From contig CAINLJ010000158.1 in the NCBI GenBank assembly GCA_903850335.1, forward strand, positions 1 through 46,683: a DNA stretch of 46,683 nt, read 5' to 3'. The notes beneath the pieces were generated by a model. The model searched no databases. It was not told the origin of the DNA and saw only the letters and a list, made by a program, of their open reading frames with translations. This DNA is from an uncultured Bacteroidia bacterium. Its GTDB lineage: Bacteria > Bacteroidota > Bacteroidia > Bacteroidales > Prolixibacteraceae. Made by a program: the position numbers and the translations under genes. This document shows, piece by piece, positions 13,544 to 32,705 of the stretch; the stretch's first letter is position 1; each line of letters starts with the position of its first letter.

Positions 13544-13620
13544 CCTAAATCTTTAGAGCATTCATATTAATTCAAATTCAGAAGTATAAATCCGATAACA
13601 TAAACAAAAAAGTTAAACAG

Positions 13621-16868: not shown

Positions 16869-18698
16869 ATGAAATCTAAAATACTAAATATCAGGAATAT
16901 AATTTTTGATGGAATCGTTTTTGTCATTTTCATTTTTTATACAGGCAATGTTTTCTCCCAATCTGTAATCAGCGATCAATGGGCAGCAAGTGATGCCTTG
17001 GGGCGTAAATTAAGGGATTTCAAGTCTGCCGGTGATAAGAGGAAAGATAAGTTTGTGGCTTTATTTTACTGGACGTGGCATCAGGGTGATGATGATACAA
17101 CCTGTTCCGTTAAAAATATAACGGAAATTATAAGGAATTTTCCTCTGGCAATGAAGGATTATAATCACCAGGCCTGGGGTACTAAAAAACCCGGCTTCTT
17201 CTTTTGGGAGGAGCCTTTGTTTGGATATTATAAAACCACCGACCCCTGGGTGTTAAGAAAACATGCCGAAATGCTTGCCGATGCAAGGATAGATGCTGTG
17301 TTCTTCGATTGCACAAACGGAAGTATAACCTGGAAGGAATCCTGTGAAGCCCTGTTTAAGACCTGGAATCAGGCTCAAAACGATGGAGTTAATGTCCCCA
17401 GGATCGCGTTTATGCTTCCCTTTGGTCCCTCATCGGATGCCTTAACCTCTCTGCGCCAACTTTACCGCGATGTATTCAAACCCAGGCGTTATGAAAATCT
17501 TTGGTTTTACTGGAAGGGCAAACCATGTATTATGGCCTATCCTGACAATCTTACCGGGACAGCTGAGGACACTGAAATTGCCAGTTTTTTCACCTTCCGT
17601 CCGGGGCAGCCTGATTATATTAACGGACCAAAACGGAATGACCAGTGGGGCTGGCTGGAAAATTATCCGCAGCATGGATATGTTAAAGATGGAAATGGAA
17701 GGTTCGAGGAGGTTACAGCCGGAGTAGCACAAAACGCATCTCCTTCAACAAATGGACATTGCAGTGCGTTTAACCTCCCTGGTTCTTTCGGGCGGAGCTA
17801 CAGCAAAAAAAATAGCTTCGATCCGAGAGTCGATGGATACCTCTACGGATGGAATTTTCAGGAACAATGGGACCGGGCTATCGAAATTGACCCGGAACTC
17901 GTGTTCGTTACCGGCTGGAATGAATTTATCGCCGGACAGTGGTTACCCAAGGATAACTGGACTGGCAATCCCTTCTCTTTTGTTGATGAATTCGACTGGG
18001 AACACAGTCGCGATATTGAACCAAACAAGGGTTGGGGTGATAAGGGGGACGTATATTATTTGCAGTTGGTTGATAATGTCCGTAAATTCAAAGGAATGGA
18101 CCCCCCGTTAAAGGCTTCCAAACCAAAAACAATTATCATCGGTAACGTTAACGGATGGGATCATGTGGAACCGTATTATCGTCATTACAAAGGGAATACC
18201 TTGCCTCGAAATCATGCAGGACGAAATGACAGGTATTATACAAACCATAGCGGGCGTAATGATATCATTGGAGCCAAGGTTACGAACGACACTGAAAAAC
18301 TATTTTTTTATGTTGAAACCGCTGATAAGCTTTCTCCTCAAACCGACCGAAACTGGATGATGCTTTTTATTGATTCGGATTGTGATAAAACGACTGGCTG
18401 GAATGGGTATGATTTCGTCCTAAACTGCGTAAAACCTCAGGACGGAAGGTTAATTGTGGAAAAAAATATTGGTAACCATTGGGAATGGGAGACTGTTGCC
18501 AAAGCAAATTTTGCGGTTAGTGGAAATAAACTCGAACTTGAAATCAATCGCAGGAGTCTGAACCTGCAAAACAAGGCCATAGATATTGAATTCAAATGGA
18601 ATGACAATATGCAGGAGAACGGAAATATTATGGACTTCTATGTGAATGGGGACACCGCCCCGGGTGGTAGGTTTAATTTTATATACAAAGACAATTAA
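16869..18698 (+). CDS. Secreted GH99/GH71-like glycan-active protein with C-terminal beta-sandwich
   Basis: This 609-residue protein has a signal anchor or signal peptide (hydrophobic about 12-30, ending VFSQ). The N-terminal barrel-like part opens with KFVALFYWTWHQGD, followed by FFFWEEPLFGYYKTTDPWVL and DARIDAVFFDCTNG. This pattern is reminiscent of GH99 and GH71 enzymes and the DUF-type barrels annotated beside them. ITGWNEF-like residues are present as FVTGWNEFIAGQW near 350, a typical strand-8 position for this group. Residues about 430-609 resemble a CBM9-like/DOMON sandwich (LSPQTDRNWMMLFIDSDCD). GH99 members cleave alpha-mannosides internally, but sequence alone does not fix the substrate here. 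The stop lies in the AT palindrome TTAATATATATTAA (18695-18708), just before the next start codon. Confidence 0.68.
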   Translation: MKSKILNIRNIIFDGIVFVIFIFYTGNVFSQSVISDQWAASDALGRKLRDFKSAGDKRKDKFVALFYWTWHQGDDDTTCSVKNITEIIRNFPLAMKDYNHQAWGTKKPGFFFWEEPLFGYYKTTDPWVLRKHAEMLADARIDAVFFDCTNGSITWKESCEALFKTWNQAQNDGVNVPRIAFMLPFGPSSDALTSLRQLYRDVFKPRRYENLWFYWKGKPCIMAYPDNLTGTAEDTEIASFFTFRPGQPDYINGPKRNDQWGWLENYPQHGYVKDGNGRFEEVTAGVAQNASPSTNGHCSAFNLPGSFGRSYSKKNSFDPRVDGYLYGWNFQEQWDRAIEIDPELVFVTGWNEFIAGQWLPKDNWTGNPFSFVDEFDWEHSRDIEPNKGWGDKGDVYYLQLVDNVRKFKGMDPPLKASKPKTIIIGNVNGWDHVEPYYRHYKGNTLPRNHAGRNDRYYTNHSGRNDIIGAKVTNDTEKLFFYVETADKLSPQTDRNWMMLFIDSDCDKTTGWNGYDFVLNCVKPQDGRLIVEKNIGNHWEWETVAKANFAVSGNKLELEINRRSLNLQNKAIDIEFKWNDNMQENGNIMDFYVNGDTAPGGRFNFIYKDN

Positions 18699-19084: not shown

Positions 19085-21019
19085 ATGAAATCATTTTCAC
19101 GAGGGATCCTGGGATTATTTATTGTTTCAGCCATTTTGTTGCTTTCAGACCTGGACAATAGAAACAAGTCTAAACCAGGGCAACAAATAAACAAAGGAGG
19201 GTCACAGGCAGTTGAAGGGAAAATGTATTCAATAGGTCTCTCTTATTTTGCCCCTGAGGCCTCCCATGACGAACTTCTTGCCGGACTTTGGTCACGCCTC
19301 AAAGAACTGGGTTTTGAACGAAATAAAAACCTGAGAGTCGTTGAATCTCATTCAAATGGCGAGATCGGAAATATTTCATCCATATTACTTAATCTGGACA
19401 ACCAGCCACTTGATTTAATCTTAGTCACCTCGACTCCATGTGTCACTGCAGCACTGACCTCAGTTCGTAATCATCGTGTTGCTTTTACTTATTGTTCTGA
19501 TCCAATTGCTGCCGGTGCAGGGAAAAGTTATAAGGATCATGCAAAAGGTATTTCCGGAATTGGGTCATTCCCTCCGGTAGAGAAAACAATCCAGTTTATT
19601 CTGGAGACAATACCGGGGATTAAAAAAATCGGGACATTATATAACAATGCCGAAGCGAACTCGAGAAGTGTCGTAAGCCTGATGCGCAAAATAGCCGATA
19701 AAAAGGGCTTTGAACTTATCGAAGTTCCTGTTACAGGCTCGTCAGAAATTTTTCAGGCTACCCAGGTCATCCTGAGCAAAGGTATACAAGCCATGTATAT
19801 CTCAGGTGATAATACGGCAACCCAGGGTTTTGATGTTATTGCCGGATTGTGTGAAAGGAGCCATATTCCCGTGATTGTTAATGATAAGGAACTTGTTGGA
19901 AAGGGGGCAATTGGTTCAATCGGTCCCGGGTGGAAGGGTGTGGGTTATCATACGGGTGATCTTGTGGCATCTATGCTTAACGGAGCTTCACCCGACTCAA
20001 TACCCCTTGAGAATTATGTTAACGAGAATATTGAAGTCAATATTCCTAAAGCCCGGTCATTGGGTTTAACAATTCCTAACGAGTTTCTTACTTCAGGTAA
20101 CCAGTCTCAAATAGTCAGAAAACAAAGATTTGCGCTTGTTCATTATGTTGATAGTCCAAATTCGGAAGATTGCGAAAAGGGTATACGGAAGGCACTTGAA
20201 GACAAAAATCTGCGTGATGGGGTAGAATATTCAATGAAGGTTTACAACGCACAGGGTGATATTTCGACACTAAACAGCATTGCGGGCACACTGGTAAATG
20301 AATCCTGGGATTTGGTGTTTGCCCTGTCAACACCAACTGCTCAGCTCCTTTCAAAAAAATTAACTGATGCCCGCCTTGTCTTTTCAAATGTAGGTGATCC
20401 CCATGCCGCAGGATTGGGGAAATCGGCTGCTGAGCACCTTCCAAATGTTTGTGGGGTATCGACAATGAGCGATTTTGAAGGTCTGATCAATATGGTCAAA
20501 ACACTGCATTCCGGCATTAAACGGGTTGGAACAGTCTTTACTCCAGCCGAGATCAACTCCGTTTCATATCGGGAACATCTTGAGCAGGCAGCCCGAAAAC
20601 AGGGAATTACGCTGGTTTCTGTGCCGGCAAATAGTGCCACCGAAGTTCTGGATGCCGCGAATTCACTGGTATCGCAAAGGATTGAGGCCTTCTGTCAAAT
20701 CTCTGATAACCTTACAGGAAGTTGTACGGCAGCTATACTTAAGGCCTCCAGGGATTCCGGGATTCCATTTTACGGATTCGTTACAAAGCTTGTGCAACAG
20801 GGAGCTATCGGGGTTTGCGCCCGAGATTATTTCGAGGCGGGATATGAAGCAGGAGAGATGGCTTTTAAGGTTTTAAATGGTATAAATCCTGAAAATATTG
20901 CCTTCCAAAATGTCAAAAAAACGGATTACCTGATCAGTGAACAAAGTGCGCGATTATTTAAGGTCGATCTTACAGAAAAGGTTAAAGTTGCAATCCCAAA
21001 TCTAAAAATTATAAAATAA
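19085..21019 (+). CDS. Tandem-fused ABC transporter substrate-binding protein (TrpX/COG2984 type)
   Basis: This 644-residue protein holds two consecutive copies of the ABC_sub_bind (TrpX-like) fold, residues about 47-345 and 352-620. Each copy has its own periplasmic-binding-protein signatures: TSTPCVTAAL with CSDPIAAGAGKS in the first, and LSTPTAQLLS with VGDPHAAGLGKS in the second. The N-terminus is an uncleaved-looking anchor (GLFIVSAILLLSDLDNR) with no lipobox, so it is probably tethered to the outer face of the inner membrane. Family members usually contain one domain and feed a LivH-type permease. Two fused domains could bind two ligands or present two copies to one channel. It is the first gene of a rightward operon with gaps of 3-38 bp or an overlap. 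Ligand unknown; aromatic amino acids are the best family precedent. Confidence 0.88.
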   Translation: MKSFSRGILGLFIVSAILLLSDLDNRNKSKPGQQINKGGSQAVEGKMYSIGLSYFAPEASHDELLAGLWSRLKELGFERNKNLRVVESHSNGEIGNISSILLNLDNQPLDLILVTSTPCVTAALTSVRNHRVAFTYCSDPIAAGAGKSYKDHAKGISGIGSFPPVEKTIQFILETIPGIKKIGTLYNNAEANSRSVVSLMRKIADKKGFELIEVPVTGSSEIFQATQVILSKGIQAMYISGDNTATQGFDVIAGLCERSHIPVIVNDKELVGKGAIGSIGPGWKGVGYHTGDLVASMLNGASPDSIPLENYVNENIEVNIPKARSLGLTIPNEFLTSGNQSQIVRKQRFALVHYVDSPNSEDCEKGIRKALEDKNLRDGVEYSMKVYNAQGDISTLNSIAGTLVNESWDLVFALSTPTAQLLSKKLTDARLVFSNVGDPHAAGLGKSAAEHLPNVCGVSTMSDFEGLINMVKTLHSGIKRVGTVFTPAEINSVSYREHLEQAARKQGITLVSVPANSATEVLDAANSLVSQRIEAFCQISDNLTGSCTAAILKASRDSGIPFYGFVTKLVQQGAIGVCARDYFEAGYEAGEMAFKVLNGINPENIAFQNVKKTDYLISEQSARLFKVDLTEKVKVAIPNLKIIK

Positions 21020-21040
21020 TATAGCCAAAAAGCAATTTAA

Positions 21041-22264
21041 ATGGAAAATAAACTGGATATTCGAAAAGATCCTCCCGGGAAGGAACAACGGATTTACCTC
21101 GAAGGACGACTGGATGCCAACTGGGCTGGTCATCTGGACGATTACCTTAACTCACTTGTCCGGAAAGGTGCTCACCGACTGATACTTAATATGTCAGGGG
21201 TACAATATATGAGCTCCGCTGGTATCAGGACACTTGTAATACATTTCAAAAAAATTAAAAATATAGGTGGTCTTTTCCTCCTCGAAGATCTTTCGGAAGG
21301 TGTGGCAGAGGTACTGGAAATGGTTGGAATGACAAGCATGTTAACGGAAAGGGAAGAAGAGACCCCCGTAATTGTCAAAGACAGACCGAACATTCTCGAG
21401 CGCGGGCAGTACCGGTTCGAAAATGAGCGGCTATCAAACGAAAGAATGACGTTCAAACTTACTGGTAATCCGGCATTATCGTTAACTTCTGGTTTTACCG
21501 CGGACGATAACGAAAAGTTCCGGTTTAAATCCAACAGTTATGCTTTAGGCATTGGTGCTATAGGTGAAGGTTTTCAGGATTGCAAATCGCGCTTCGGAGA
21601 GTTTCTGGCTCTTGGTGATGCATTGGTTTATAAACCTGCTGACGGTTCGAAAGTTCCTGATTACATTGTAAAAACAGGTAAGCTTGAACCGGAAATTAAC
21701 GCCCTTTATTCATTACAGGCAGAAGGTCCCTTCTCGAACAGGATTATCTTTGATCCCATTGCTGCCAATACCTCTATAACTGTAAGTGACCTTGTTACAA
21801 GCCTCGCCGCTTCAACGGACCTGAAACAGTTTCTGTTTCTAATCATAGCTGAGAGTGACGGGCTTGTTGGAACAAGTCTGAATGCACCTCCTGTTGATGG
21901 AAATCCTTTGTTTGAGTTTCCTGCAATTCGCGAGAACATTCACTTTACAACAGAACCCGCATATCCCAGGATGCTTTCGGTTTCTCTGGGTTTTTCCTCT
22001 CTGGAACCGGACGAGATTATTCGTCCATTCCTAAGACCTGACAAGCCTGGGTCATCCTCTTTTATTCATATCCATACAGCTATCTTTCCTTATCAGTCGT
22101 TACCCAAAAATGAAAAATCAGCAAACAAACTCGTACTAAACCTCTTTGAAAACAGTCATGTATTAGATGTTTTGCATCTGATTAACGATACCCGTGAAAT
22201 CGCAGGAATAGGCGAAAGCGTGTTTAAACAAGGCGTTGCGTGGATAGGAAATCTTACTAAATGA
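21041..22264 (+). CDS. STAS domain protein with unrecognised C-terminal domain
   Basis: Residues 1-105 of this 407-residue protein are a STAS domain of the SpoIIAA type (IYLEGRLDANWAG, LNMSGVQYMSSAGIRTL). Ser59 aligns with the phosphorylated serine of SpoIIAA. Residues about 125-407 form a domain I do not recognise, with YALGIGA at 167-173, a FGEFLALGDALVYKP strand region and a DLKQFLFLIIAE helix. A diverged copy of this domain follows the STAS domain in the 743-residue protein at 25091. There is no signal peptide or membrane segment, so it is probably cytosolic. It sits between the tandem binding protein (21 bp before) and the permease (17 bp after), which strongly suggests a role tied to the transporter. 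Confidence 0.8.
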   Translation: MENKLDIRKDPPGKEQRIYLEGRLDANWAGHLDDYLNSLVRKGAHRLILNMSGVQYMSSAGIRTLVIHFKKIKNIGGLFLLEDLSEGVAEVLEMVGMTSMLTEREEETPVIVKDRPNILERGQYRFENERLSNERMTFKLTGNPALSLTSGFTADDNEKFRFKSNSYALGIGAIGEGFQDCKSRFGEFLALGDALVYKPADGSKVPDYIVKTGKLEPEINALYSLQAEGPFSNRIIFDPIAANTSITVSDLVTSLAASTDLKQFLFLIIAESDGLVGTSLNAPPVDGNPLFEFPAIRENIHFTTEPAYPRMLSVSLGFSSLEPDEIIRPFLRPDKPGSSSFIHIHTAIFPYQSLPKNEKSANKLVLNLFENSHVLDVLHLINDTREIAGIGESVFKQGVAWIGNLTK

Positions 22265-22281
22265 TAAAAACAGATAACTAA

Positions 22282-23214
22282 ATGACACTTTTAATTGGAT
22301 CAATCACAATAGGACTTGTCCTTTCGCTGTTGGCACTGGGCATTTTTATAAGTTTCCGGATTTTTGATTTTCCGGACATTACAGCCGAAGGATCATTTAC
22401 TTTCGGCGCAGCAATTACGGCCTCATTGATAGTTGCAGGTGTCAATCCTGTGACCGCAACGGCTATGGCTTTCGCCGGAGGCTTAATGGCAGGTGCCGCA
22501 ACCGGACTTATTCACACACGCTTCAAGATAAATCCTTTATTGTCAGGAATATTAGTGATGACCGCGCTGTATTCGGTTAATCTTCATGTGATGGGTAAAA
22601 GCAATGTCCCACTATTGTCTCAGCTTACATTATTTACATGGGCTGAAAACTTCTCCGTATCTGTTTCAGGAAAAGATGCGGTAACAAATATCATCGGGTG
22701 GAGCGTTCCTGTTAAAGATTTATGGATCCTCCTTTTCTGTCTGATCATGATCGTTGCATTCAGTCTGCTTTTATTATGGTTCTTTCGTACAAATATTGGC
22801 ACTGCAATGCGTGCTACTGGCGATAATGACCAGATGATCAGGGCTCTGGGTGTTAATACAAATGTTATGATCGTATTTGGTGTCGCACTATCGAATGGAT
22901 TTATTGCGCTGGCCGGTTCGATGCTTGCCCAGTTTCAGGGGTTTGCTGATGTTCAGATGGGAATCGGTATGATGGTTTGGGGTCTCGCGAGTGTGATAAT
23001 CGGAGAGGCTCTTATCAATGAGAAAAAACTGGGCTTACTGATCGCCGGTGCTGTGATTGGAGCAGTGTTGTTCCGTTTGCTCGTGGCTATCGCCCTGCGC
23101 TGGGGAATGAATCCTAACGACCTTAAGCTGATCACTGCGGCCTTTGTATTTCTGGCTTTGGTTCTGCCAGGTATTATGAACAAGACAAAGAAGATTAAAC
23201 TTATCAGTCAATGA
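22282..23214 (+). CDS. ABC transporter permease, LivH/TrpY (COG4120) type
   Basis: This 310-residue integral membrane protein has about eight or nine transmembrane segments. The conserved early motif FPDITAEGSFTFGAA (residues 30-44) and later GLIHTRFKINPLLSGILVMTALYSVN mark the permease family that partners TrpX-type binding proteins. GTAMRATGDNDQMIRALGVN (about 173-192) is the cytoplasmic loop expected to contact the ATPase. Only one permease gene is present, so the channel should be a homodimer. Its stop overlaps the ATPase start in an ATGA, indicating translational coupling. Confidence 0.9.
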   Translation: MTLLIGSITIGLVLSLLALGIFISFRIFDFPDITAEGSFTFGAAITASLIVAGVNPVTATAMAFAGGLMAGAATGLIHTRFKINPLLSGILVMTALYSVNLHVMGKSNVPLLSQLTLFTWAENFSVSVSGKDAVTNIIGWSVPVKDLWILLFCLIMIVAFSLLLLWFFRTNIGTAMRATGDNDQMIRALGVNTNVMIVFGVALSNGFIALAGSMLAQFQGFADVQMGIGMMVWGLASVIIGEALINEKKLGLLIAGAVIGAVLFRLLVAIALRWGMNPNDLKLITAAFVFLALVLPGIMNKTKKIKLISQ

Positions 23215-24032
23215 AGAAGATGCTCGAAATATCAAACCTTTGCAAGACATTTAATGCAGGCACAATTAACGAAGTGATGTCGCTGCGAAACGTATCGCTT
23301 ACAATAGAAGAAGGGAGCTTCGTTTGCGTTTTGGGAACCAATGGATCCGGAAAATCAACGTTGCTAAATGCCGTAGCAGGAACTTTTCTCACCGATTCGG
23401 GAAGTATAGTACTTAAAGGAAAGGATATTACGCGACGACCTGAATATCAGCGTGCAAGCCAGATAGGCAGAGTATTCCAGAATCCATTTAGCGGTACAGC
23501 ACCTGGTATGTCAATTGCCGAAAACCTTGCCTTGGCTGCCAGACGTGGCAGGAAACGCGGACTCGGATGGGGATTACCAGTCCAGGTGCTCAGTGAGCTT
23601 AGGAATAGGGTAAAAGTGTTAAATATGGGCCTCGAAGAACGTCTTGAAACACCCATAGGAAAGCTTTCCGGAGGCCAGCGTCAGGCTCTGACACTCCTGA
23701 TATCCAGCTGGATAAAGCCCGATCTTCTCCTTCTGGATGAACATACCGCGGCACTCGATCCTAAAACAGCATCCAAGGTAATCGAACTCACAGAAAAGAT
23801 TATCAAGAAGGATAATTTGACTACCCTGATGGTCACCCATTCCATGCAACAAGCTGTCAACCTGGGCGACAGAATTATCATGATGCATCAGGGTCAGATA
23901 AAATACGATTTCAAAGGAGAAGAAAAGAAGAGGCTCAAAGTACCTGACCTGCTTGCCTTGTTTGATGAGTTACGAAGAAAAGAGCAGATTGATAATGCAG
24001 TAGCCGAATTGCTGCTCAATGAATATGTATAA
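23211..24032 (+). CDS. ABC transporter ATPase, TrpZ (COG1101) type
   Basis: This 273-residue nucleotide-binding subunit has Walker A GTNGSGKST (42-50), Q-loop Gln90, signature LSGGQRQ (152-158), Walker B LLLLDEHTA (172-180) and an H-loop in VTHSMQQA. All catalytic elements are intact. HTAALDP replaces the usual PTSALDP after Walker B, which is normal in the COG1101 group. It would energise import through the overlapping upstream permease. The single-domain binding protein follows after only 3 bp. Confidence 0.93.
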   Translation: MKKMLEISNLCKTFNAGTINEVMSLRNVSLTIEEGSFVCVLGTNGSGKSTLLNAVAGTFLTDSGSIVLKGKDITRRPEYQRASQIGRVFQNPFSGTAPGMSIAENLALAARRGRKRGLGWGLPVQVLSELRNRVKVLNMGLEERLETPIGKLSGGQRQALTLLISSWIKPDLLLLDEHTAALDPKTASKVIELTEKIIKKDNLTTLMVTHSMQQAVNLGDRIIMMHQGQIKYDFKGEEKKRLKVPDLLALFDELRRKEQIDNAVAELLLNEYV

Positions 24033-24035
24033 AAC

Positions 24036-25052
24036 ATGAAACAAATATTAAGACCACTACTTTTCCTTATAGCTGTAAGTTCAATACTGCTGTTATCTGA
24101 TTTGCAAAACCGAAAAGGGAGTGCACACACTACCGGGAAAAAGAGGATTGCCATTTTTCGCTTTAATTCAAATCAGATTCTTGAGGTGACCGAGAATGGA
24201 GTACTCGATAAAATAAAACGCACTAAAAATTTTGCCGACGGACAGATCGAAATTAGCCGGTACTGTGCCGAGGGTGATATGGCTGTGGCAAATACAATAG
24301 CCAGTAATATAGTTGGGGAAAAATTCGACCTTGTTGTTACTATCAGCACACCTGGTCTTCAGGTTATGGCAAATGCAAATAAACACGGCGATATCCTTCA
24401 CGTATTTTGTGCTGTCACAGATCCGGTTGCCGCAGGCGTTGGGGTTACTGGTCCGGCAACTAATCAGCACCCCGCCCATCTTGTCGGAATTGGCACCTTT
24501 CAACCTGTTGAGGGGATTTTCAGAATTGCACGTATAATGAAACCTGACCTTAAAAAAGTAGGCGTGGTCTGGTGTACGAGTGAAACCTGCTCCGCGGCTT
24601 GTCTGAAAAAGGCACGTGTCATATGCAAGGAACTTGGTATCGAGCTTGTCGAGATGAGTGTCGAGACAGTTTCGCAGGTCTATGAAGCCTCACTCGCCGT
24701 TTGTTCCAAAGGGGTCGAAGCACTTTGGATTGGTGGTGACAACATCGTTGAATCAGCTATTGACATGTATATTGGAGCTGCCAATAAATCCCATATCCCT
24801 GTCTTCTCGAATAATCCAAAACACGCCTTTAAGGGTGGGATGGCCAACCTTGGGGCTAATTATTTTGAAGTAGGTCAAACAGCTGGCGACATGGTTGTAT
24901 CGTTACTCAACGGATCAAAAACAAGTACAATAGAAATAAAAAATGTTGTACCGGAGAAACTGTACATCAATGATGCAGTGAGAAAAAAAATGAAAGACAA
25001 CTGGTTATTACCTGCCTCGTTACAAGCCCGGGCCGATTCCCTGATAAAGTAA
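24036..25052 (+). CDS. ABC transporter substrate-binding protein (TrpX/COG2984 type), single domain
   Basis: This 338-residue protein has one ABC_sub_bind domain (about 37-325) with TISTPGLQVM, AVTDPVAAGVG and VGIGTFQPVE. Its N-terminal anchor, LIAVSSILLLSDLQNR, is nearly identical in its core to that of the tandem protein at 19085 (VS-x-ILLLSDL-x-NR), showing recent common origin of the leader. No lipobox is present. With the tandem protein it brings the number of binding domains for this one permease to three. The STAS-kinase gene starts 38 bp downstream. Confidence 0.88.
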   Translation: MKQILRPLLFLIAVSSILLLSDLQNRKGSAHTTGKKRIAIFRFNSNQILEVTENGVLDKIKRTKNFADGQIEISRYCAEGDMAVANTIASNIVGEKFDLVVTISTPGLQVMANANKHGDILHVFCAVTDPVAAGVGVTGPATNQHPAHLVGIGTFQPVEGIFRIARIMKPDLKKVGVVWCTSETCSAACLKKARVICKELGIELVEMSVETVSQVYEASLAVCSKGVEALWIGGDNIVESAIDMYIGAANKSHIPVFSNNPKHAFKGGMANLGANYFEVGQTAGDMVVSLLNGSKTSTIEIKNVVPEKLYINDAVRKKMKDNWLLPASLQARADSLIK

Positions 25053-25090
25053 ATCCACAATTGCTGAAACAGATTTTATAAATACGTCAG

Positions 25091-27322
25091 ATGATGATCG
25101 CGATTCAAAATGAGGAGACAATTCCGGTTATTCATGTATCCGGCAGGATCGATGCAAATACAAAATCAGAGCTGGAACTTGTCCTTCTTCCTATTGCTCA
25201 TAAAGCGAAACATTTGATTATCAATCTATCGGAGTGTGACTATTTGTCAAGTGCCGGCATCCGGACATTATTAATCACCGAAAAAATATTGAAATCCAAG
25301 GGTGGTGGATTATTTCTTTGTGGATTGTCAGCCGACGTATATCAAATTATTGAGATGGCAGGAATGCTTCAGATCTTTCATGTTTGCAGAGATATAAGGG
25401 AGGCGAATAATGAAATCGTTAAACTCAATGATCTGACTGAGGGCTCCCTAAAATGGCTTTCAGAGGGTCTTGCATTTGAATTTCTACCGGTTGATAATGA
25501 AAGAAAAGCGGCAATTTTCTGGATGGATGAAGGTATTGCCGGATATGATGAACTCAACTTTGCGGTAGGAATAGGATCTCCGGCCGATTCTCCGGTTGAA
25601 CTTGTTGAATCGCGGGGAGTCTTCGTCACAAACGGACATTGTACAGGCTTCATCCCGTCAAACAGGGAATTTACCCCCGACTTCAGAATTCCGCAAAATC
25701 CTTCCGATGCTGGAATATTCGTAAATTGTGGTTTGTCTTTTGGAACCCGACCTAACGGAATTTTACGATTGGAAGAGGAAGGTTCCCTTTCCCTGGGTAG
25801 GCTGTCAGCAGAAATATTCAAAATAAATAGTAAACCTGAAACATTGGCACAGACATTTATGATGGCTGTCACTCTTAGTCAGGATAACCAAAAGCCATTT
25901 ATATCCATTAATCTGGTTTCAGAATTGTCATTTCCAAAACCAGAAGGGAAATCTGACTTTCAGGAGATGGTAGATTTCATCCTGTCCAGGAATGCTAGCT
26001 TAAGCTTGACAGGTGCCAGATTTATGCTGGGTATTAAGCCTGAGATTGTACCAGGGATGACACTGATGCATCTTCTTAATGAGGTACTTACTATCGGGAA
26101 TATTGTCGATATTGAGACTTGCCACCCTGATGATCAGGTGGTTAATCCTATTTCCTTGGTATTTCTTTCTGATGGGTTGTCAAAGGCATCTTCATATCGT
26201 CTTAAAGTTGAGGCTGAGGAAGATTGTCTGTCAGAACCTCATAAGGTATTTCTGGCCCGCAGGTTGTACACCGATGCTTCCCGTCTTGTAATAAAACAGC
26301 TTCATGGGGGCTATTCTGCTCAGACCTTTCAGGTTACCTCCTACGATCAGGCAGGAAGAAAGCTCCGGCCTACCGTACTGAAAATCTCCGGTCGTGACTT
26401 GATATCCAGAGAGTCGGACCGATGCAAACGATATGCGAACCCTTATATCCTTAATAATAGTGCAATGGTTCTGGGAACCGGATTTTTTGGAAATACAGGA
26501 GCATTGCGGTATAACTTTGTTGGCATTGGCGGTGAGCAAACCAGGTTGAAATGGCTGACCCACTATTTCAACAGCTGGTCTAAGGAACAACTGGCACCTT
26601 TATTTGATAAGATATTTCTTCAAATACTTAATCCATGGTATGGCCAGCCGATCAGGGAAATGATCTGCCCCTTTCGTGACCATGATCCTACTTTTACCTT
26701 TTTCCCTGATCTGTGTGAAACTGCCTCAGTGGTACTCGGTATTTCGCCCGAAGAACAGTTTTTTATTGTTGAAGAGACTGGTCAGCGGCTCACAAATCCA
26801 TATTGGTTTCTTAAATATGAATTTAAGAGAAGACGGGAAATGGCCCTCGATTATTATACATCCATTTGTCATGGTGATCTGAATATGCAAAATATTCTTC
26901 TTGACGAGGATATGAATGTCTATCTGATTGATTTCTCTGAGACAAGGCCACGTTCAGTGGTTTCCGATTTTGCACGGCTCGAAGCTATATTCATGATTGA
27001 ACATTCTCCGATGGCGAATGAAACAGAATCCGAACAATATATAAGATTTATCACGCAATTTTACGACACTGTGAGTCTTGGGAAGTCCCCCCTTAATACT
27101 TTTGCAGGTAATGATATAGAAAAGGTAAGCCGAAATGTCTCTTTAACTTTTAAAATGAGGGACTACGCATTTAGAGCAGTAAATGGTCATCCGAATAACA
27201 TTCCCTATTGCATAGCACTTCTCGAGTGGATTTTGCCTATCGTATGCTACTACGGTACTTCTCATTCGCATAAACGGCTTTCTATGATTGTGGCCGGATT
27301 ATTATGCGAAAAAATTTTGTAA
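25091..27322 (+). CDS. STAS - unknown domain - APH/choline-kinase-like fusion protein
   Basis: This 743-residue, apparently cytosolic protein has three parts. Residues 1-105 are a STAS domain (LIINLSECDYLSSAGIRTL, Ser54 at the phosphosite). Residues about 115-395 are a diverged copy of the unknown domain in the 21041 protein (NFAVGIGS at 156-163). Residues about 395-743 resemble aminoglycoside phosphotransferase/choline kinases: a Gly-rich loop LHGGYSAQTFQV (404-415), VLKIS with Lys431 as a possible ATP-binding lysine, the catalytic loop HGDLNMQN (594-601), and the metal-binding IDFSET (613-618). The active site looks complete. It may phosphorylate a small molecule or a protein. Similarity to the TCAD9-type kinase-like domains described in conflict-system surveys is possible, but I cannot check it. 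ATG at codon 2 is an alternative start. Confidence 0.82.
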   Translation: MMIAIQNEETIPVIHVSGRIDANTKSELELVLLPIAHKAKHLIINLSECDYLSSAGIRTLLITEKILKSKGGGLFLCGLSADVYQIIEMAGMLQIFHVCRDIREANNEIVKLNDLTEGSLKWLSEGLAFEFLPVDNERKAAIFWMDEGIAGYDELNFAVGIGSPADSPVELVESRGVFVTNGHCTGFIPSNREFTPDFRIPQNPSDAGIFVNCGLSFGTRPNGILRLEEEGSLSLGRLSAEIFKINSKPETLAQTFMMAVTLSQDNQKPFISINLVSELSFPKPEGKSDFQEMVDFILSRNASLSLTGARFMLGIKPEIVPGMTLMHLLNEVLTIGNIVDIETCHPDDQVVNPISLVFLSDGLSKASSYRLKVEAEEDCLSEPHKVFLARRLYTDASRLVIKQLHGGYSAQTFQVTSYDQAGRKLRPTVLKISGRDLISRESDRCKRYANPYILNNSAMVLGTGFFGNTGALRYNFVGIGGEQTRLKWLTHYFNSWSKEQLAPLFDKIFLQILNPWYGQPIREMICPFRDHDPTFTFFPDLCETASVVLGISPEEQFFIVEETGQRLTNPYWFLKYEFKRRREMALDYYTSICHGDLNMQNILLDEDMNVYLIDFSETRPRSVVSDFARLEAIFMIEHSPMANETESEQYIRFITQFYDTVSLGKSPLNTFAGNDIEKVSRNVSLTFKMRDYAFRAVNGHPNNIPYCIALLEWILPIVCYYGTSHSHKRLSMIVAGLLCEKIL

Positions 27323-27385
27323 TCAAAATGTAACAAATTATTCCATTTATAAACAATATATTTCGGAAAATTTGCTGTAGCAGAT

Positions 27386-28996
27386 ATGAGCACTTTGGAG
27401 ATTATTGCTACTATGGTAGCCGGTATCGGGCTTTTCTTTAGTGGCATAAAAATATTAAGTAATTCAATGAAGAACCTGGCCAGTCACAGGTTCAGGCTTA
27501 TTATCGCTAAATGGACAAATAATCCTTTCTTAGCAGCATTTTGGGGGTTTGCTTCGGGAATGATAACGCAAAGCAGTTCAAATACTGTTTTTATCCTCGT
27601 GGGACTGGTTCGTGGCGGATTAATTGGGGTCAGGGCCGCACTTCCTGTAATAATCTGGTCAAGTGTAGGTACAACAGTTTTGATTTTCCTTGTAGCTATA
27701 AATATTAAACTCGGCATTCTCATACTCGTCGGTTTTAGTGGAATATTTTTTGGCTTTGATAAAGGAAGCCGACGTGAAAGCTTTTATGCTGCCATATTCG
27801 GAATCAGCTTACTTCTTTTCGGATTTCACGAGCTTAAATCCGGGTCAACGCCATTCGCCCAGATGGAATTTATCCGTAACATCTTTCAGTATGCAAAGGA
27901 TTCCTATATTGTAGCAATATTAATTGGAATTGCTCTCAGGTTTTTGATCCATTCATCAACGACGATTGCAGTTTTAATTATGACGATTAGTGACTCTGGA
28001 TTGATAGGACTGGATCAGGTAATATTGATGATCTTCAGTATGAGTTTCGGTGAAGCACTCTCAATCTATGTTATGTCATCAAATATTAAAGGTGTTTCTA
28101 AACAGGTAGTGATATTTAAAATTGTCGAGTCTGTATCGGCAGCAACGTTGTTGCTATGTATTTCGTTCATAGAAATGGGCTGGCATATTCCCTTGACTAA
28201 GTACGCCGTAAGTACTCTGGGTGCGACGATCATACAACAGACAGCATTCGCATTCCTGTTTTTAAAATCTGCTCCGGTTTTTGTTCTGCCTCTAATCTAT
28301 GGTCCAATTTACAAAGCTCTTGCTAAATTTAGTCCCCCAACGGTTGAGGAGGATTTGTCTGAAACTAAATATATATCGGAACAATCTCTTGCCGACGTCA
28401 GTACAGCACTGATCCTTGTTGAAAATGAGCAAAACAGGATTTTTGAGCGATTTTCAAAATATATCGATAATATCCGGACTGAGAAGGAATCAGAATCTTC
28501 CTATGATTTTTCTGTGATAAATAAGTCTAATGTGCATTTAATTAATGAGATAGACTCTTATCTGAAGAGTATAATAAATCTAAATCTTTCACCAACTAAT
28601 TCCGAAATTTATGTTTTACTTCAGAACAGGCAGACCATGCTTAAGTCAATCGATGAGACTGTTTTCAGTTTTGTTAGTACAGTATTTGAAAGTGAGCTTT
28701 CTAACGCTCTTGAGAAGCTTATTCAGAATTCGGCAGAGTCACTCCATGTAAATTTTATTACAGCTTTTGAAGCCACGAAGTCCAGAGATAAGTTTGATGT
28801 TGAAATCCTTCTGAAAATTACAGGAGATAAAGGTCCTCTCATGGAGAAAATCAGGAAAACCCATCTCTCCGAAGAATATGAACTAAATCAGGGGGATAAG
28901 GTTGTTCTTCTTTATGTAACTGACTTGTTTCAAAGGATTATATGGCTTCTTAATAACTGGGCAAAGTCGATCAGCACTGTGCAGGGAGAAAAATAA
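27386..28996 (+). CDS. Na/Pi-cotransporter-family membrane protein with PhoU-like tail
   Basis: This 536-residue protein has about eight transmembrane segments in residues 1-310, arranged as two inverted halves, each with the family's serine-rich signature: TQSSSNTVFI (61-70) and HSSTTIAVLI (189-198). Residues about 320-536 are soluble, helical and resemble the PhoU-like tail of bacterial NptA-type proteins. Transport of phosphate with sodium is the family precedent, but HSSTT in place of the usual QSS in the second half leaves the substrate open. It begins 63 bp after the STAS-kinase gene on the same strand and may belong to the same transcript. Confidence 0.85.
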   Translation: MSTLEIIATMVAGIGLFFSGIKILSNSMKNLASHRFRLIIAKWTNNPFLAAFWGFASGMITQSSSNTVFILVGLVRGGLIGVRAALPVIIWSSVGTTVLIFLVAINIKLGILILVGFSGIFFGFDKGSRRESFYAAIFGISLLLFGFHELKSGSTPFAQMEFIRNIFQYAKDSYIVAILIGIALRFLIHSSTTIAVLIMTISDSGLIGLDQVILMIFSMSFGEALSIYVMSSNIKGVSKQVVIFKIVESVSAATLLLCISFIEMGWHIPLTKYAVSTLGATIIQQTAFAFLFLKSAPVFVLPLIYGPIYKALAKFSPPTVEEDLSETKYISEQSLADVSTALILVENEQNRIFERFSKYIDNIRTEKESESSYDFSVINKSNVHLINEIDSYLKSIINLNLSPTNSEIYVLLQNRQTMLKSIDETVFSFVSTVFESELSNALEKLIQNSAESLHVNFITAFEATKSRDKFDVEILLKITGDKGPLMEKIRKTHLSEEYELNQGDKVVLLYVTDLFQRIIWLLNNWAKSISTVQGEK

Positions 28997-29203
28997 ATTA
29001 GTTATGAGTAGTGAAACGTCTTCCTACTTATGTGAAAGTGATATTCCGGATTTCTCTTTCCGGTATTTCATGTGATTTTAGCAAAAATATTCACAGGGTT
29101 ATGAATAAATTTATTTTGGTTTATTCTAAATTTTGATAACAAAAACAGGTAAAATATTGTTTATTCATCAAATATTACAGTTATAAAATTAAATTACAGT
29201 ATT

Positions 29204-29497
29204 ATGAAAGTATTACAATCTGATGAAACATTGGTGAAGATTGCTTTTTCAGGCAAACTGGATAGTGCAAGTGTCTCAACTATAGAGGTTAAATTATTCG
29301 CCCTTCTCAATGGTATAGAGTCCCCGGTCGTATTCGATTTTACTGAAGTTGGCTTTATTGGATCACTGGGAATAAGAATGGTCCTTATGGCAGCAAAGGA
29401 AGTTAAGCGCCAGGGTTATACTCTGAAAATCGAAAATGCTAACGACGATGTAGAAAACGTATTCATGTTGACAAGCCTTGGCGACTTGCTAAACTGA
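29204..29497 (+). CDS. Stand-alone STAS domain protein
   Basis: This 97-residue protein is a single STAS domain of the anti-sigma-factor-antagonist type. FDFTEVGFIGSLGIRMVLMAA (residues 44-64) carries Ser54 at the position phosphorylated in SpoIIAA. The N-terminal strands (VKIAFSGKLDSASVSTIE) are typical. It is separated by 207 bp from the Na/Pi-like gene and by 186 bp from the kinase gene, so it may have its own promoter; TAAATTTTG near 29127 is a weak candidate. Its likely partner is the RsbW-like kinase encoded next. Confidence 0.85.
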   Translation: MKVLQSDETLVKIAFSGKLDSASVSTIEVKLFALLNGIESPVVFDFTEVGFIGSLGIRMVLMAAKEVKRQGYTLKIENANDDVENVFMLTSLGDLLN

Positions 29498-29585
29498 AAT
29501 ATTCTTCCTGTATCCGAAAGATACTGTTTCCCAAGAGGAACAGGATGGTAGGTTGGATATAACTAATTGAAAATAATGCAGATAA

Positions 29586-29604
29586 TACCTCTTTTTCAGA
29601 GGTA
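29586..29604 (+). terminator. Small hairpin after the STAS gene
   Basis: TACCTC (29586-29591) and GAGGTA (29599-29604) pair perfectly around a 7-nt T-rich loop. It lies between the STAS gene and the promoter candidate of the kinase operon, so it may be a weak terminator or an operator. It has no strong U-tract. Confidence 0.3.
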
Positions 29605-29612
29605 AATCTTGT

Positions 29613-29642
29613 ATTGTTTCAATTTATTTCTTATTATATTTG
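29613..29642 (+). promoter_or_regulatory. Candidate promoter of the RsbW/STAS/phosphatase genes
   Basis: ATTG (29613-29616), an 18-bp spacer and TATATTTG (29635-29642) fit the Bacteroidetes TTTG-N19-TAnnTTTG pattern, with an exact -7 element. Transcription would start about 35 bases before the ATG at 29684. Confidence 0.5.
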
Positions 29643-29683
29643 TAATGTTAAAGAATTCATTATACCTCTTTTAGCCGAGATGC

Positions 29684-30103
29684 ATGGAAAATAAAACGCT
29701 ACTGGTTGATAATCAAATGAGTGAACTCAGAAGACTTGCTGATTTTCTGGATGACCTTGGCGAAGAATGGGAACTTAACCCCGGACTTGTATTTTCTTTA
29801 AATTTAGTACTGGAAGAGGCCCTTACAAATATAATTTTATACGGGTTTCAAGATACGGATAAGCACTCAATAGAAATGGAATTTTCCAGAACACAGATAG
29901 ATCAACTTGTCGTTTCTGTAATTGACGACGGTCACCCCTATGATCCGACACAGAAAGAAGATCCTGACCTGTCATTACCGGCGGAGGAGAGGCCCGTAGG
30001 AGGATTAGGGATATTTCTTATTAAAAAAATTATGGATAAGGTTGAATACCATAGAAATAACAATAAAAATTTTTTAATTCTAACAAAAAATATAAAGTCA
30101 TGA
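29684..30103 (+). CDS. RsbW/SpoIIAB-like anti-sigma-factor serine kinase
   Basis: This 139-residue protein is a stand-alone GHKL (HATPase_c_2) kinase. The N-box LVLEEALTNIILYGF (41-55) has Glu45 and Asn49, the G1 box is DDGHPYDP (81-88), and the G2 box is GGLGIFLI (106-113). Members of this family phosphorylate a serine on a STAS antagonist and sequester a sigma factor or other client. The stop overlaps the start of the next STAS gene (ATGA at 30100), the classic arrangement of a cognate kinase-antagonist pair. No sigma factor gene is visible nearby, so the client may be something else. Confidence 0.92.
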   Translation: MENKTLLVDNQMSELRRLADFLDDLGEEWELNPGLVFSLNLVLEEALTNIILYGFQDTDKHSIEMEFSRTQIDQLVVSVIDDGHPYDPTQKEDPDLSLPAEERPVGGLGIFLIKKIMDKVEYHRNNNKNFLILTKNIKS

Positions 30104-30429
30104 ATGTTAAAATCACAACATTGCCGGATTACACGTTATTAATTATTGAAGGACGTGTCGATACAACTAACGCGGCTGGACTGGAAAAGACAATGATGGA
30201 AGCTATCGATGGCGGATGCACAAGAATTGTCCTCGATTGTACCGGACTAAATTATATTAGCAGCTCAGGATTGAGAGTCTTTCTTGTGATACAGAAGAAA
30301 ATGATTTCAATTAAAGGGCATTTTAACTTATGTAATCTTCAACCAGGAATAAAGGAAATATTTGATATATCTGGCTTTTCTTCTATTTTTTCGCTTTTCG
30401 CTGACAAGGAAGCTGCAATAATTGGATAA
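30100..30429 (+). CDS. SpoIIAA/RsbV-like STAS anti-sigma-factor antagonist
   Basis: This 109-residue STAS protein carries VLDCTGLNYISSSGLRVFL (residues 44-62), with Ser55 aligned to the SpoIIAA phosphosite and the most canonical local sequence of the five STAS domains here. By family precedent, the overlapping RsbW-like kinase phosphorylates it and the downstream PP2C protein dephosphorylates it. Translation is coupled to the kinase through the ATGA overlap. Confidence 0.93.
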   Translation: MNVKITTLPDYTLLIIEGRVDTTNAAGLEKTMMEAIDGGCTRIVLDCTGLNYISSSGLRVFLVIQKKMISIKGHFNLCNLQPGIKEIFDISGFSSIFSLFADKEAAIIG

Positions 30430-30527
30430 ATAGTAGAATCTGGATAGCCCACGGGGGAAAAGTCAGTTTGGAGCCTGTTATTTGAACCATGTACTTAATC
30501 CCGTGCCTTTTAATTAATTTGCTTACT

Positions 30528-31712
30528 ATGGATGATAAGTTGAATGTGAAGATGAAAATCATGATCGTTGACGACGAAGTGGATCTTGAGCCAATGATCA
30601 GGCAAAAATTTCGTAAACAGATAAGAGATGGAGTTTACGATTTTGTTTTTGCTCATAATGGTCTGGAAGCTCTCGCTAAACTTATCGAACAACCTGAAAT
30701 AAGGCTAATCCTTTCAGACATTAATATGCCTGAGATGGACGGACTCACCCTGCTCTCCAAATTAAAGGAGCTAAAAAGTCCCTGGTTAAAAACGGTCATC
30801 GTCTCCGCCTATGGCGATATGGAAAATATTCGCACTGCAATGAACAGGGGAGCCTTCGACTTTCTCACCAAACCAATCAGCTTTGACGACCTGGAAATAA
30901 CAATAAATAAAACCATCGAAGAGATAACGATGATCTGGAAGAGTATGCAGGAGCACGATCAGCTGATCTCAATACAGCAGGATCTGCAAACTGCACGCGA
31001 AATCCAGCAGGCAATTCTTCCAAAAACTTTTCCTCCCTTTCCAAACCGAAACGAATTTTCGATATTCGCTTCAATGACTCCCGCAAAAGAGGTTGGGGGT
31101 GACTTCTTTGATTTCTTCCTGATCGATAAGGACAGGCTGGGATTTGTCATCGGGGATGTATCCGGTAAAGGTGTAAGCGCAGCAATTTTTATGGCAGTGA
31201 GCAGAACGCTGATCCGGGCTACCGGAATTAAAGGTATTTCGACCGAAGAATGTATGAGTTACGTAAATAAATTACTCTGCAGCGAAAGCGTTTCATGTAT
31301 GTTTGTAACCGTTTTTTATGGTATCCTGAGTACATCCACAGGTGAAATCGAATATGTCAATGCGGGTCACAATCCCCCTTATGTTCTGTCCGGCAATAGT
31401 ATAAACAGGGTCGATATGACAGGTGGAATAATACTGGGATGCATTGATGATTTTAATTATAGTTCGAAAAAGTTAAAACTGAATCCTGGTGATTCATTAT
31501 TTCTTTTCACGGACGGAGTAACAGAGGCAATTAACAGAAATGATGAGATGTATGGAGAGGAGAGTCTGATAGCTTTTCTTAAGGAATACAGCTCTCATCC
31601 GATAGAAGAGGTTGTAAAAGAGTCGAATCTTTCTGTTACAAGGTTTTCGGATGGGACACCTCAATCGGATGATATTACCCTGCTTGCGGTCCGGTATCAC
31701 GGACTGCTGTAA
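30528..31712 (+). CDS. Response regulator fused to PP2C/SpoIIE-type phosphatase (RsbU-like)
   Basis: Started at ATG 30528, the protein has 394 residues; an upstream in-frame ATG at 30489 adds a 13-residue hydrophobic stretch unlike a receiver start. Residues 8-130 form a receiver domain with acidic pair DDE (15-17), phosphoacceptor Asp64 in LSDINMPEMDG, and the TKP lysine. A linker with the helix DLQTAREIQQAILP leads to a PPM/SpoIIE phosphatase with VGGDFFDFF, GDVSGKGVSAA, LFTDGVTEA and SDDITLLAV, so the metal-binding aspartates are intact. It should dephosphorylate a STAS protein in response to a histidine kinase or other phosphodonor, but no histidine kinase gene is adjacent. Confidence 0.94.
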   Translation: MDDKLNVKMKIMIVDDEVDLEPMIRQKFRKQIRDGVYDFVFAHNGLEALAKLIEQPEIRLILSDINMPEMDGLTLLSKLKELKSPWLKTVIVSAYGDMENIRTAMNRGAFDFLTKPISFDDLEITINKTIEEITMIWKSMQEHDQLISIQQDLQTAREIQQAILPKTFPPFPNRNEFSIFASMTPAKEVGGDFFDFFLIDKDRLGFVIGDVSGKGVSAAIFMAVSRTLIRATGIKGISTEECMSYVNKLLCSESVSCMFVTVFYGILSTSTGEIEYVNAGHNPPYVLSGNSINRVDMTGGIILGCIDDFNYSSKKLKLNPGDSLFLFTDGVTEAINRNDEMYGEESLIAFLKEYSSHPIEEVVKESNLSVTRFSDGTPQSDDITLLAVRYHGLL

Positions 31713-31850
31713 AACAATCTGATAATCAGAATTTTAAATGATAAAAGAAGAAGAGGTTATTTTTTGTTCAGGGATGAAACTATTTTATTATAACTTTCTT
31801 ATCTTGTGGCACATATTCTAAATATAAAAACTGATCAAAGAATTATTATT

Positions 31851-32705
31851 ATGAAAAGACAATTTTATACAACAGGAGTTTTCCTTTTAGTAATAACGCT
31901 GATATTTTCAAGTTGTAATCAACGGCCTGCCAAGGTAAAAGAAAATCAGGTTAAAAACTCAAAAGGCCAGATTGGTACCGTAGAGGTTGAAATTTTTGAC
32001 GCGGTTAAACTAAAGGATCAATTGGTTGATATTATCAAAACAGCTCCAAAACCTACTGAACTTGTCGATTTTATCAACAAAGGGGGCTATTCCTACATGG
32101 CGGATCTTACACTTTCAACGGATAAAGCAGAGAAATACGTTACGCTTGCCGAGCAGAGTATGGCTGCCGGAATTTATAAATTTGACCTCTACTATGCAAA
32201 AACTTATAACCGGTACGATATTGTTGATCAAATCTTTGATGTACAACAAATGCTTGTTGGCAAGATTGGTTTACAGAGTGATGTCGCATCAATGAAAAAA
32301 TACGATGAGCGGATAAAACAAAATAAAGGGAATTCCGATTCATTGAATGTTATTGTCACTGCGGCGATGAATGAGCTGTCACAGAGTTATTTAACAGGAG
32401 AACATTCAGGTGTGTACGCATTGTCGTACGTTTCAGCTAATATCGAAGGCTTATATATTATTACTCAGATTGCCTCTATGGCAACAGATAATACAGAGCT
32501 TATCAAATTGATCGGTCTGCAAAAGGAAAGGGTTAAAACTAATTATCAGCTCCTTGAGATTATGTCAGCCGATCCGGCAGTGGCACCAATCTTTGATAAG
32601 ATGAAACCGATATTGAATTCTTTTAGCAGCCCCGAATTTACTGCAAAACAATTTGCCGAGGTAACGCCGCTTATTGCAGCCTTACGTAACGAAATAGGCA
32701 AATAG
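31851..32705 (+). CDS. Uncharacterised lipoprotein
   Basis: The ATG at 31851 gives 284 residues with a lipoprotein signal (VITLIFSSC, acylated Cys about residue 22). The rest is helical with no recognised motif. An upstream GTG at 31806 in the same frame would put an unlikely polar extension before the signal. Position between the phosphatase and the ABCG-like transporter suggests an envelope role in the same network, but this is context only. A strong terminator follows the stop, so it ends a transcription unit. Confidence 0.72.
   Translation: MKRQFYTTGVFLLVITLIFSSCNQRPAKVKENQVKNSKGQIGTVEVEIFDAVKLKDQLVDIIKTAPKPTELVDFINKGGYSYMADLTLSTDKAEKYVTLAEQSMAAGIYKFDLYYAKTYNRYDIVDQIFDVQQMLVGKIGLQSDVASMKKYDERIKQNKGNSDSLNVIVTAAMNELSQSYLTGEHSGVYALSYVSANIEGLYIITQIASMATDNTELIKLIGLQKERVKTNYQLLEIMSADPAVAPIFDKMKPILNSFSSPEFTAKQFAEVTPLIAALRNEIGK

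Follow-up and report, generated by a model that had tools for sequence, protein, structure and literature searches.

A STAS protein with a domain of predicted acetolactate-decarboxylase fold accompanies a TrpXYZ-type ABC importer and is encoded beside partner-switching genes

Eleven genes on the + strand of contig CAINLJ010000158.1 (19085-31712), from an uncultured Bacteroidia bacterium of the family Prolixibacteraceae, combine an ATP-binding cassette (ABC) importer with components of a partner-switching system. They lie within a stretch of 46,683 nt (assembly GCA_903850335.1), the whole of which is referred to here as the window. The importer half (19085-25052) encodes, in order, a tandem TrpX-type binding protein, a STAS protein that we call STAS-X, a permease, an ATPase and a single binding protein, while the second half encodes a STAS-kinase, an Na/Pi-like transporter, STASa, an RsbW-like kinase, STASb and a receiver-PP2C phosphatase. 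Judged from gene order and gene content, STAS-X is encoded next to the permease wherever room allows, and its occurrence follows that of the importer. The genomic data give good support to a link between transport and partner switching, because STAS-X is constant in this importer family and because RsbW, PP2C and STAS genes are enriched beside the importer.

The X domain, i.e. the part of STAS-X that follows the STAS domain, was searched for in genome contigs of 84,980 species (one genome per species), which yielded 57 loci, 56 of which were scored. According to the record titles, they belong to Bacteroidota, Verrucomicrobiota (Opitutales, Chthoniobacterales), Victivallis, Proteobacteria including Alphaproteobacteria, Deltaproteobacteria, Acidobacteria and Armatimonadetes, and thus span six phyla, or seven when Deltaproteobacteria are treated as a phylum of their own. 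As all 57 titles denote metagenome-assembled genomes, single placements may be wrong; even so, the permeases of the two Armatimonadetes pair in the tree described below, as do those of the two Deltaproteobacteria. Where there is room for 250 bp or more, the permease gene comes directly after STAS-X (53/53 loci; in L103 and L108 the open reading frames (ORFs) overlap for want of stops). Where there is room for 1,250 bp or more, the ATPase gene is present as well (51/51 loci), in L066 at a distance of about 5 kb. Of the 54 loci with 300 bp of room, 50 encode a substrate-binding protein (SBP) no more than 3.5 kb upstream of STAS-X; the four others (L082, L090, L093, L104) form one clade (99/100) and carry the SBP gene downstream instead. 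Of 61 genomes (the window's own and those of 60 relatives), 12 encode full-length STAS-X, and exactly these 12 also encode the permease. Co-occurrence of the STAS gene with the transporter, in a conserved order, thus extends over 56 related loci, so the check suggested with the original prediction has come out in its favour. In L037 (7113-8862; genome G001), both the permease and the ATPase are interrupted by a stop or a break in the frame, reflecting either an assembly error or decay.

As a control, 395 genomes of the phylum were searched with the permease, and 22 matched, including the window's own. Three of the 21 other permeases follow a divergent STAS-X (25-26% identity) and are each fused to two or three SBP domains. 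None of the remaining 18 has a STAS-X gene within ±1.5 kb (16 are informative, as the upstream side of L123 and L130 lies mostly or wholly beyond the contig end), and wider flanks of nine of these ordinary permeases were again without it. In the permease tree (midpoint-rooted for drawing, and with a very long branch for L132, one of the ordinary rows), a single group (97/100) unites the 49 permeases linked to STAS-X, from 48 loci and the window; with the three divergent members included, its support is 89/95. The 18 ordinary permeases stand apart. Since the STAS-X-linked permeases group together and the divergent STAS-X proteins keep the key residues (see below), the coupling of STAS-X to the importer probably arose once. 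In the divergent loci (L136, L137, L138), the domains fused to the permease are of the ABC_sub_bind type; L136 also encodes RsbW and STAS proteins, a PAS histidine kinase and a Peripla_BP_6 protein.

The congener G010 (locus L049) shares with the window the flanking genes on either side and a complete kinase half, with protein identities of 50-76%. Between its small membrane gene and its STAS-kinase gene, where the window has five importer genes, there are 43 bp, and neither full-length STAS-X nor the permease was found elsewhere in this genome. STAS-X therefore goes with the importer, and the genes for STAS-kinase, Na/Pi transporter, STASa, RsbW, STASb and phosphatase constitute a second, separable module. 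The locus varies elsewhere, too: G010 has no counterpart of the window's gene at 16869-18698, and an additional importer of the SBP_bac_3 type precedes its STASa. The tight spacing had been taken to indicate that the STAS proteins of the region act with the transporter. This is supported for STAS-X, a constant member of the importer half, but does not extend to STAS-kinase and STASa: the module containing the STAS-kinase, Na/Pi and STASa genes also exists without the transporter in G010, so a tie to the transporter does not hold for every STAS gene of the region. The extra importer of L049 (6278-9666) consists of a permease fused to two SBP_bac_3 stretches and an ATPase; a comparable one in L036 (4072-8852), which follows the STAS-kinase (or Na/Pi) gene and precedes STASa, has a permease fused to five such stretches, and an ATPase. 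Both are absent at that place in the window.

STAS-X is 407 aa long, and the STAS domain (Pfam match at residues 19-101) accounts for only about one quarter of it. The X domain (residues ~113-407) has neither a Pfam nor an NCBIfam match, and a profile search of PDB sequences at E up to 1 gave none. An AlphaFold model built on 51 rows (pLDDT 91.8, pTM 0.83) was compared with known structures by Foldseek. The STAS part matched SpoIIAA/RsbV (prob 1.00), and the X domain matched acetolactate decarboxylase (5yho, E 9.9e-7, prob 1.00) and, more weakly, PTD012 (1xcr, E 1.8e-3, prob 0.92); the decarboxylase matches listed have TM (target) 0.49-0.65 and identities of 9-13%. A guess made from the sequence, that X is a degenerate PP2C phosphatase, was abandoned, Foldseek having given acetolactate decarboxylase instead. 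The original prediction overlooked this second domain of STAS-X, as well as the TCAD9/APH-type kinase domain in which the 743-aa STAS-kinase ends.

Nine residues of STAS-X, i.e. S58, S59, G61, E187, H343, H345, H379, D383 and R385, are identical in 51/51 alignment rows. A Ser-Ser-x-Gly motif is kept in every aligned STAS-X at the position, to which S58/S59 are assigned, that we take to be the STAS phospho-acceptor site. The three divergent members, only 24-25% identical, still hold S58, S59, E187, H343, H345 and H379. In the nine acetolactate decarboxylases compared (of 14 matches), a glutamate of a GE motif and an HxH...H set are likewise invariant. The HxH histidines and the third histidine of these enzymes are zinc ligands, and the glutamate is an active-site residue. 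The X domain probably binds metal.

RsbW-like genes, called with our own profile in ORFs under 260 residues, were found in the stretches of 20/56 STAS-X loci, on the same strand in 19/20, and PP2C genes also in 20/56. In long loci (8.5 kb or more upstream of STAS-X and 8 kb or more downstream) the frequency of RsbW-like genes is 12/23. The window's genome holds 7 PF13581 matches (any ORF length) in 5.5 Mb, or ~2.6% per 20 kb; against an expectation of 3%, the p-value of 12/23 is about 5e-13, with relatedness ignored. RsbW neighbours also occur outside Bacteroidota (L089, L098, L102, L107) and in the divergent L136. In L037, L042 and L047 the gene adjoining RsbW encodes a dCache-HAMP-PP2C phosphatase. 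Of 21 sequences each, 19 to 21 show the ATP-site boxes of RsbW and 15 to 19 show the phosphatase patterns; the STASb-type acceptor serine pattern occurs in 18/19. Several fusions were observed as well. Directly downstream of the STAS-X importer of L096, a xanthine/uracil-type permease is fused to an RsbW-like HATPase_c_2 domain (12578-14293), i.e. a transporter has its own partner-switching-type kinase domain. A 501-aa protein encoded inside the cluster of L042 (15850-17352) joins HATPase_c_2 to a GNAT acetyltransferase, ORFs of ~500 aa with RsbW similarity are found in L072, and HATPase_c_2 occurs in a 509-aa frame on G000:C6.

The features of the window's cluster are listed in Table 1. The genes, their order and their spacing had been described correctly, as confirmed by gap measurement and by Pfam and NCBIfam. 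The gaps are, in order, 21, 17, -4 (overlap), 3, 38, 63, 207, 186, -4 and 59 bp, and the first six genes lie close together. The first ten proteins, scanned with Pfam, gave the series two ABC_sub_bind, STAS, BPD_transp_2, ABC_tran, ABC_sub_bind, STAS with TCAD9/APH, Na_Pi_cotrans, STAS, HATPase_c_2 and STAS; the eleventh was scanned with NCBIfam only. Simple patterns revealed the catalytic motifs of the ATPase, the RsbW-like kinase and the phosphatase. The last of these probably starts at codon 14, where several close homologues (in L049, L052, L062 and L088) begin. The terminator-like sites, among them those near 29046 and 29586, do not clearly outnumber the chance expectation (15 versus 11.7, sd 3.1, in shuffles); neither these nor the promoter-like sites (51 versus 36.7, sd 6.2) were used.

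Table 1. Genes of the importer/partner-switching cluster in the window
Feature	Position	Strand	Characteristics
Tandem SBP	19085..21019	+	N-terminal hydrophobic segment; two ABC_sub_bind (TrpX-type) stretches, PF04392 E 2.5e-93
STAS-X	21041..22264	+	STAS (~1-105), PF01740 E 1.2e-13, fused to acetolactate-decarboxylase-fold domain (~113-407)
ABC permease, BPD_transp_2, TrpY/COG4120-like	22282..23214	+	PF02653 E 1.5e-27; own tree group
ABC ATPase, TrpZ/COG1101-like	23211..24032	+	PF00005 E 2.8e-27; catalytic motifs present
Second SBP, single ABC_sub_bind domain	24036..25052	+	PF04392 E 9.5e-38
STAS-kinase: STAS, X-like middle, TCAD9/APH-type kinase	25091..27322	+	PF01740 8.2e-17, PF19974 2.9e-38, PF01636 9e-8
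Na/Pi-cotransporter-like membrane protein, accessory	27386..28996	+	PF02690 1.9e-33
STASa, stand-alone STAS protein	29204..29497	+	PF01740 1.8e-12
RsbW/SpoIIAB-like serine kinase, HATPase_c_2	29684..30103	+	PF13581 8.4e-25; ATP-site box patterns present
STASb, SpoIIAA/RsbV-like antagonist, overlaps kinase gene	30100..30429	+	PF01740 1.4e-18
Receiver + SpoIIE/RsbU-type PP2C phosphatase	30528..31712 (ORF opens 30489)	+	NCBIfam: RssB-type regulators, SpoIIE; metal-site patterns present

The STAS-kinase matches the profile PF19974 with 132.6 bits (cut-off 40), and its HGDxxxxN and DFS motifs are invariant in 10/10 sequences. Its middle region (window positions 25418-26290) aligns with the X domain (hhalign prob 91), with the HxH motif absent, and is perhaps a degenerate copy of it. 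Since the model of this protein is weak (7 rows, pLDDT 68.9, kinase part poor), fold was not used to judge the kinase and X-like parts. The gene was found in the stretch of only 6/56 STAS-X loci and in 11/61 genomes (once as a fragment), 9 of which also have STAS-X (Fisher p 6e-7); within the genus, 6 genomes have both, 10 neither, and 1 and 1 are discordant (p 0.0025), relatedness being ignored in both tests. In some relatives (L035, L041, L049) an Na/Pi-like gene is located near the STAS-kinase gene. TCAD9 stands for ternary-complex-associated domain 9, a domain name that appears in a figure legend of PMC10910872. APH-type kinases of ternary systems are treated in PMC7159879, in the accessible part of which the name TCAD does not appear. 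The window's protein shares the TCAD9 profile and has intact kinase motifs; it differs from TCAD9 systems in its fusion to a STAS and an X-like domain, and no vWA or MoxR domain is found among the 11 genes.

An ABC_sub_bind SBP, a BPD_transp_2 permease and an ABC ATPase encoded in one operon-like run place the importer in the TrpXYZ-type superfamily. The SBPs match three solved chains (3lkv, 6hni and 3lft), the last being the tryptophan-bound chain of PMC9382623. Against the cut-off of 390 bits for TrpX equivalogs, the single SBP scored 161.7 and the tandem SBP 300.3 bits. The TrpX residues that contact the ligand are given in PMC9382623 as T108, A127, T129, D152 and N233. T108 and N233 are kept in all three SBP domains of the window, A127 and T129 in 1/3, and D152 is replaced by T, S and T. 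Among 126 SBP domains of the family, T108 is kept in 118 and N233 in 119, the A127 and T129 places are variable, and the D152 place holds Thr or Ser in 95/126 and Asp in 13/126; in eight ordinary SBP domains, used as a control, it shows D 3, E 3 and T 2, in a loosely aligned column. Because D152 is mostly replaced by Thr or Ser, the SBPs probably, though not surely, do not hold an aromatic amino acid in the way that TrpX does; the loose control column weakens this test.

The closest described importer is the tryptophan transporter TrpXYZ of Streptococcus suis (PMC9382623), which has an SBP of the same family (PF04392) and, as here by Pfam, an ABC permease and an ATPase in one operon. However, as presented there, it comprises three genes, whereas the window's importer has in addition a STAS gene and a tandem SBP, and D152 of TrpX corresponds to Thr, Ser and Thr. 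Another relevant system is MlaFEDB (PMC7367683), in which the STAS protein MlaB is likewise dedicated to an ABC transporter and phospho-control is suspected. A phosphomimetic residue at the STAS acceptor weakens the MlaB-MlaF interaction, and the authors noted no other PDB entry combining STAS and ABC proteins, leaving the question of phosphorylation open. In contrast to STAS-X, MlaB is a single STAS domain without an X domain, and MlaFEDB contains the MlaE permease and an MCE protein, whereas the window's permease belongs to PF02653 and no MCE match occurs among the ten Pfam-scanned proteins. With RsbU/RsbV/RsbW, SpoIIAA/AB/E and the variants SypA/SypE and BtrU/V/W, as outlined in PMC8256260, the cluster shares the HATPase_c_2 kinase, the STAS antagonists with an acceptor serine and the PP2C phosphatase. 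Unlike these systems, it has no sigma factor among its 11 genes, and the candidate client is an ABC importer subunit. The X domain and acetolactate decarboxylase (PF03306)/PTD012 have the fold in common, and a GE-motif Glu and an HxH...H set, candidate counterparts of one another, are invariant in each family. X differs in lacking a match to the decarboxylase profile, in its fusion to STAS and in the longer stretch from HxH to the third His. No description of this cluster was found among open-licence PMC papers, as judged by title and start of abstract.

Based on these observations, we suggest that STAS-X is a dedicated cytoplasmic subunit of the importer, which would be switched by the RsbW-like kinase and the PP2C phosphatase through S58/S59 and would gate uptake, with feedback. 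This is the best explanation available, and its chance of being right comes close to even. STAS-X would dock on the ATPase or the permease, as MlaB does on MlaF; phosphorylation of S58/S59 by the RsbW-like kinase would make or break this docking, and the phosphatase, receiving its input from the receiver domain here and from a dCache sensor in some relatives, would reverse it. The X domain would probably bind metal and read or chemically handle the imported ligand or its product. Uptake would thus be gated by an environmental signal, and the state of the importer could feed back on the kinase through competition among the kinase's STAS clients. Several observations weigh against this explanation. 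G010 retains the kinase half although it has no importer, which requires other targets for this half. RsbW is missing from the fetched stretch of 36/56 loci, many of them short, and from 11/23 long loci, which means that an RsbW-type kinase may be encoded elsewhere or be dispensable. Foldseek placed MlaB (7ch8_L, E 7.9e-4) below SpoIIAA/RsbV for the STAS part. The likeness of X to the decarboxylases is one of fold only (no Pfam match to PF03306 at E 0.1, hhalign prob 1.6), and E187 and H343/H345/H379 are candidate counterparts of the GE glutamate and HxH...H by motif order, not by coordinates. Finally, the best 50 of 907 Foldseek matches (E up to 10) of the weak STAS-kinase model, whose middle region is X-like, include no kinase and no decarboxylase, being nearly all STAS proteins or STAS-bearing transporters by title.

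The transporter might instead serve as a receptor: the loaded or cycling importer would change STAS-X, which would hold or free the RsbW-like kinase, with the output reaching another partner (STASa, STASb, STAS-kinase or an unlinked regulator) and import itself being unregulated. The many binding domains (in the window a tandem SBP and a further one; in three genomes a permease that carries two or three SBP domains) and an NMT1-type binding protein gene preceding that of the dCache phosphatase in L037 and L047 would suit such a role, and a kinase half without an importer is expected if the importer is an optional input. However, a working pump has been kept, since the ATPase is present in all 51 loci and its motifs are intact in 47/47 full-length family ATPases, the window's included, and the phosphatase is already fed by receiver and dCache sensors. 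We therefore regard the receptor role as possible but rather unlikely. The original prediction had inferred a phosphorylation-controlled transport or sensing system relaying ligand binding outside to STAS proteins inside. The connection of transport with partner switching has held up (RsbW at 20/56 loci, and at 12/23 long ones), but the opposite direction, in which the kinase controls the importer, fits at least as well, with MlaB as a precedent. A poorer candidate still is that STAS-X is chiefly an enzyme or ligand-processing subunit, X acting on the cargo, STAS being a docking handle and the kinase and phosphatase genes lying adjacent for general co-regulation. The fold of X, the frequent absence of RsbW, and E187, H343, H345 and H379, invariant like an active or metal site even in the divergent members, agree with this; the SSxG motif is equally invariant, however, and RsbW is far commoner here than in the genomic background. 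That the STAS and partner-switching genes merely adjoin the transporter in this lineage, by chance or hitch-hiking, is very improbable. The downstream part does differ between relatives, and STAS-kinase is near few STAS-X loci, but the constant order across six or seven phyla, the identical phyletic pattern and the joint absence in G010 speak otherwise. A chance neighbourhood is refuted for STAS-X and possible for the Na/Pi transporter gene.

Other interpretations of the region were also considered. No Rfam match at gathering scores was obtained in the window, which removed a riboswitch from consideration, and a phage or plasmid element was rejected, as the X domain has no relatives in viral contigs or plasmids. 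A defence system, an idea derived from TCAD9, was dismissed as well: PADLOC matched STAS-kinase only weakly, to mads_6 (E 0.0011, 24 residues), and STAS-X not at all. Its stronger matches concern only a neighbour at 32806-35820 (mads_3, E 6.7e-16), a 1004-aa ABCG-like ABC protein with an N-terminal extension, relatives of which lie near the cluster in L056 and L057. The gene at 31806-32705 encodes a 299-aa protein with a lipoprotein-like start and no Pfam match; its relatives adjoin the ABCG-like gene in the same two loci.

Phospho-control of the STAS subunits of ABC transporters is a question raised for MlaB and left open in PMC7367683. It is directly testable here, because one cluster encodes the STAS subunit with its acceptor serines as well as a candidate kinase and phosphatase. 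We further propose, at slightly less than even likelihood, a class of ABC importers with a metallo-STAS subunit as client of an RsbW-type kinase, in which partner switching would turn uptake on and off (and report back) independently of any sigma factor, with X sensing or converting the cargo. If true, this would add a non-transcriptional output to partner switching and newly define a STAS fusion with a metal site. The cluster suggests that signalling and uptake are wired together.

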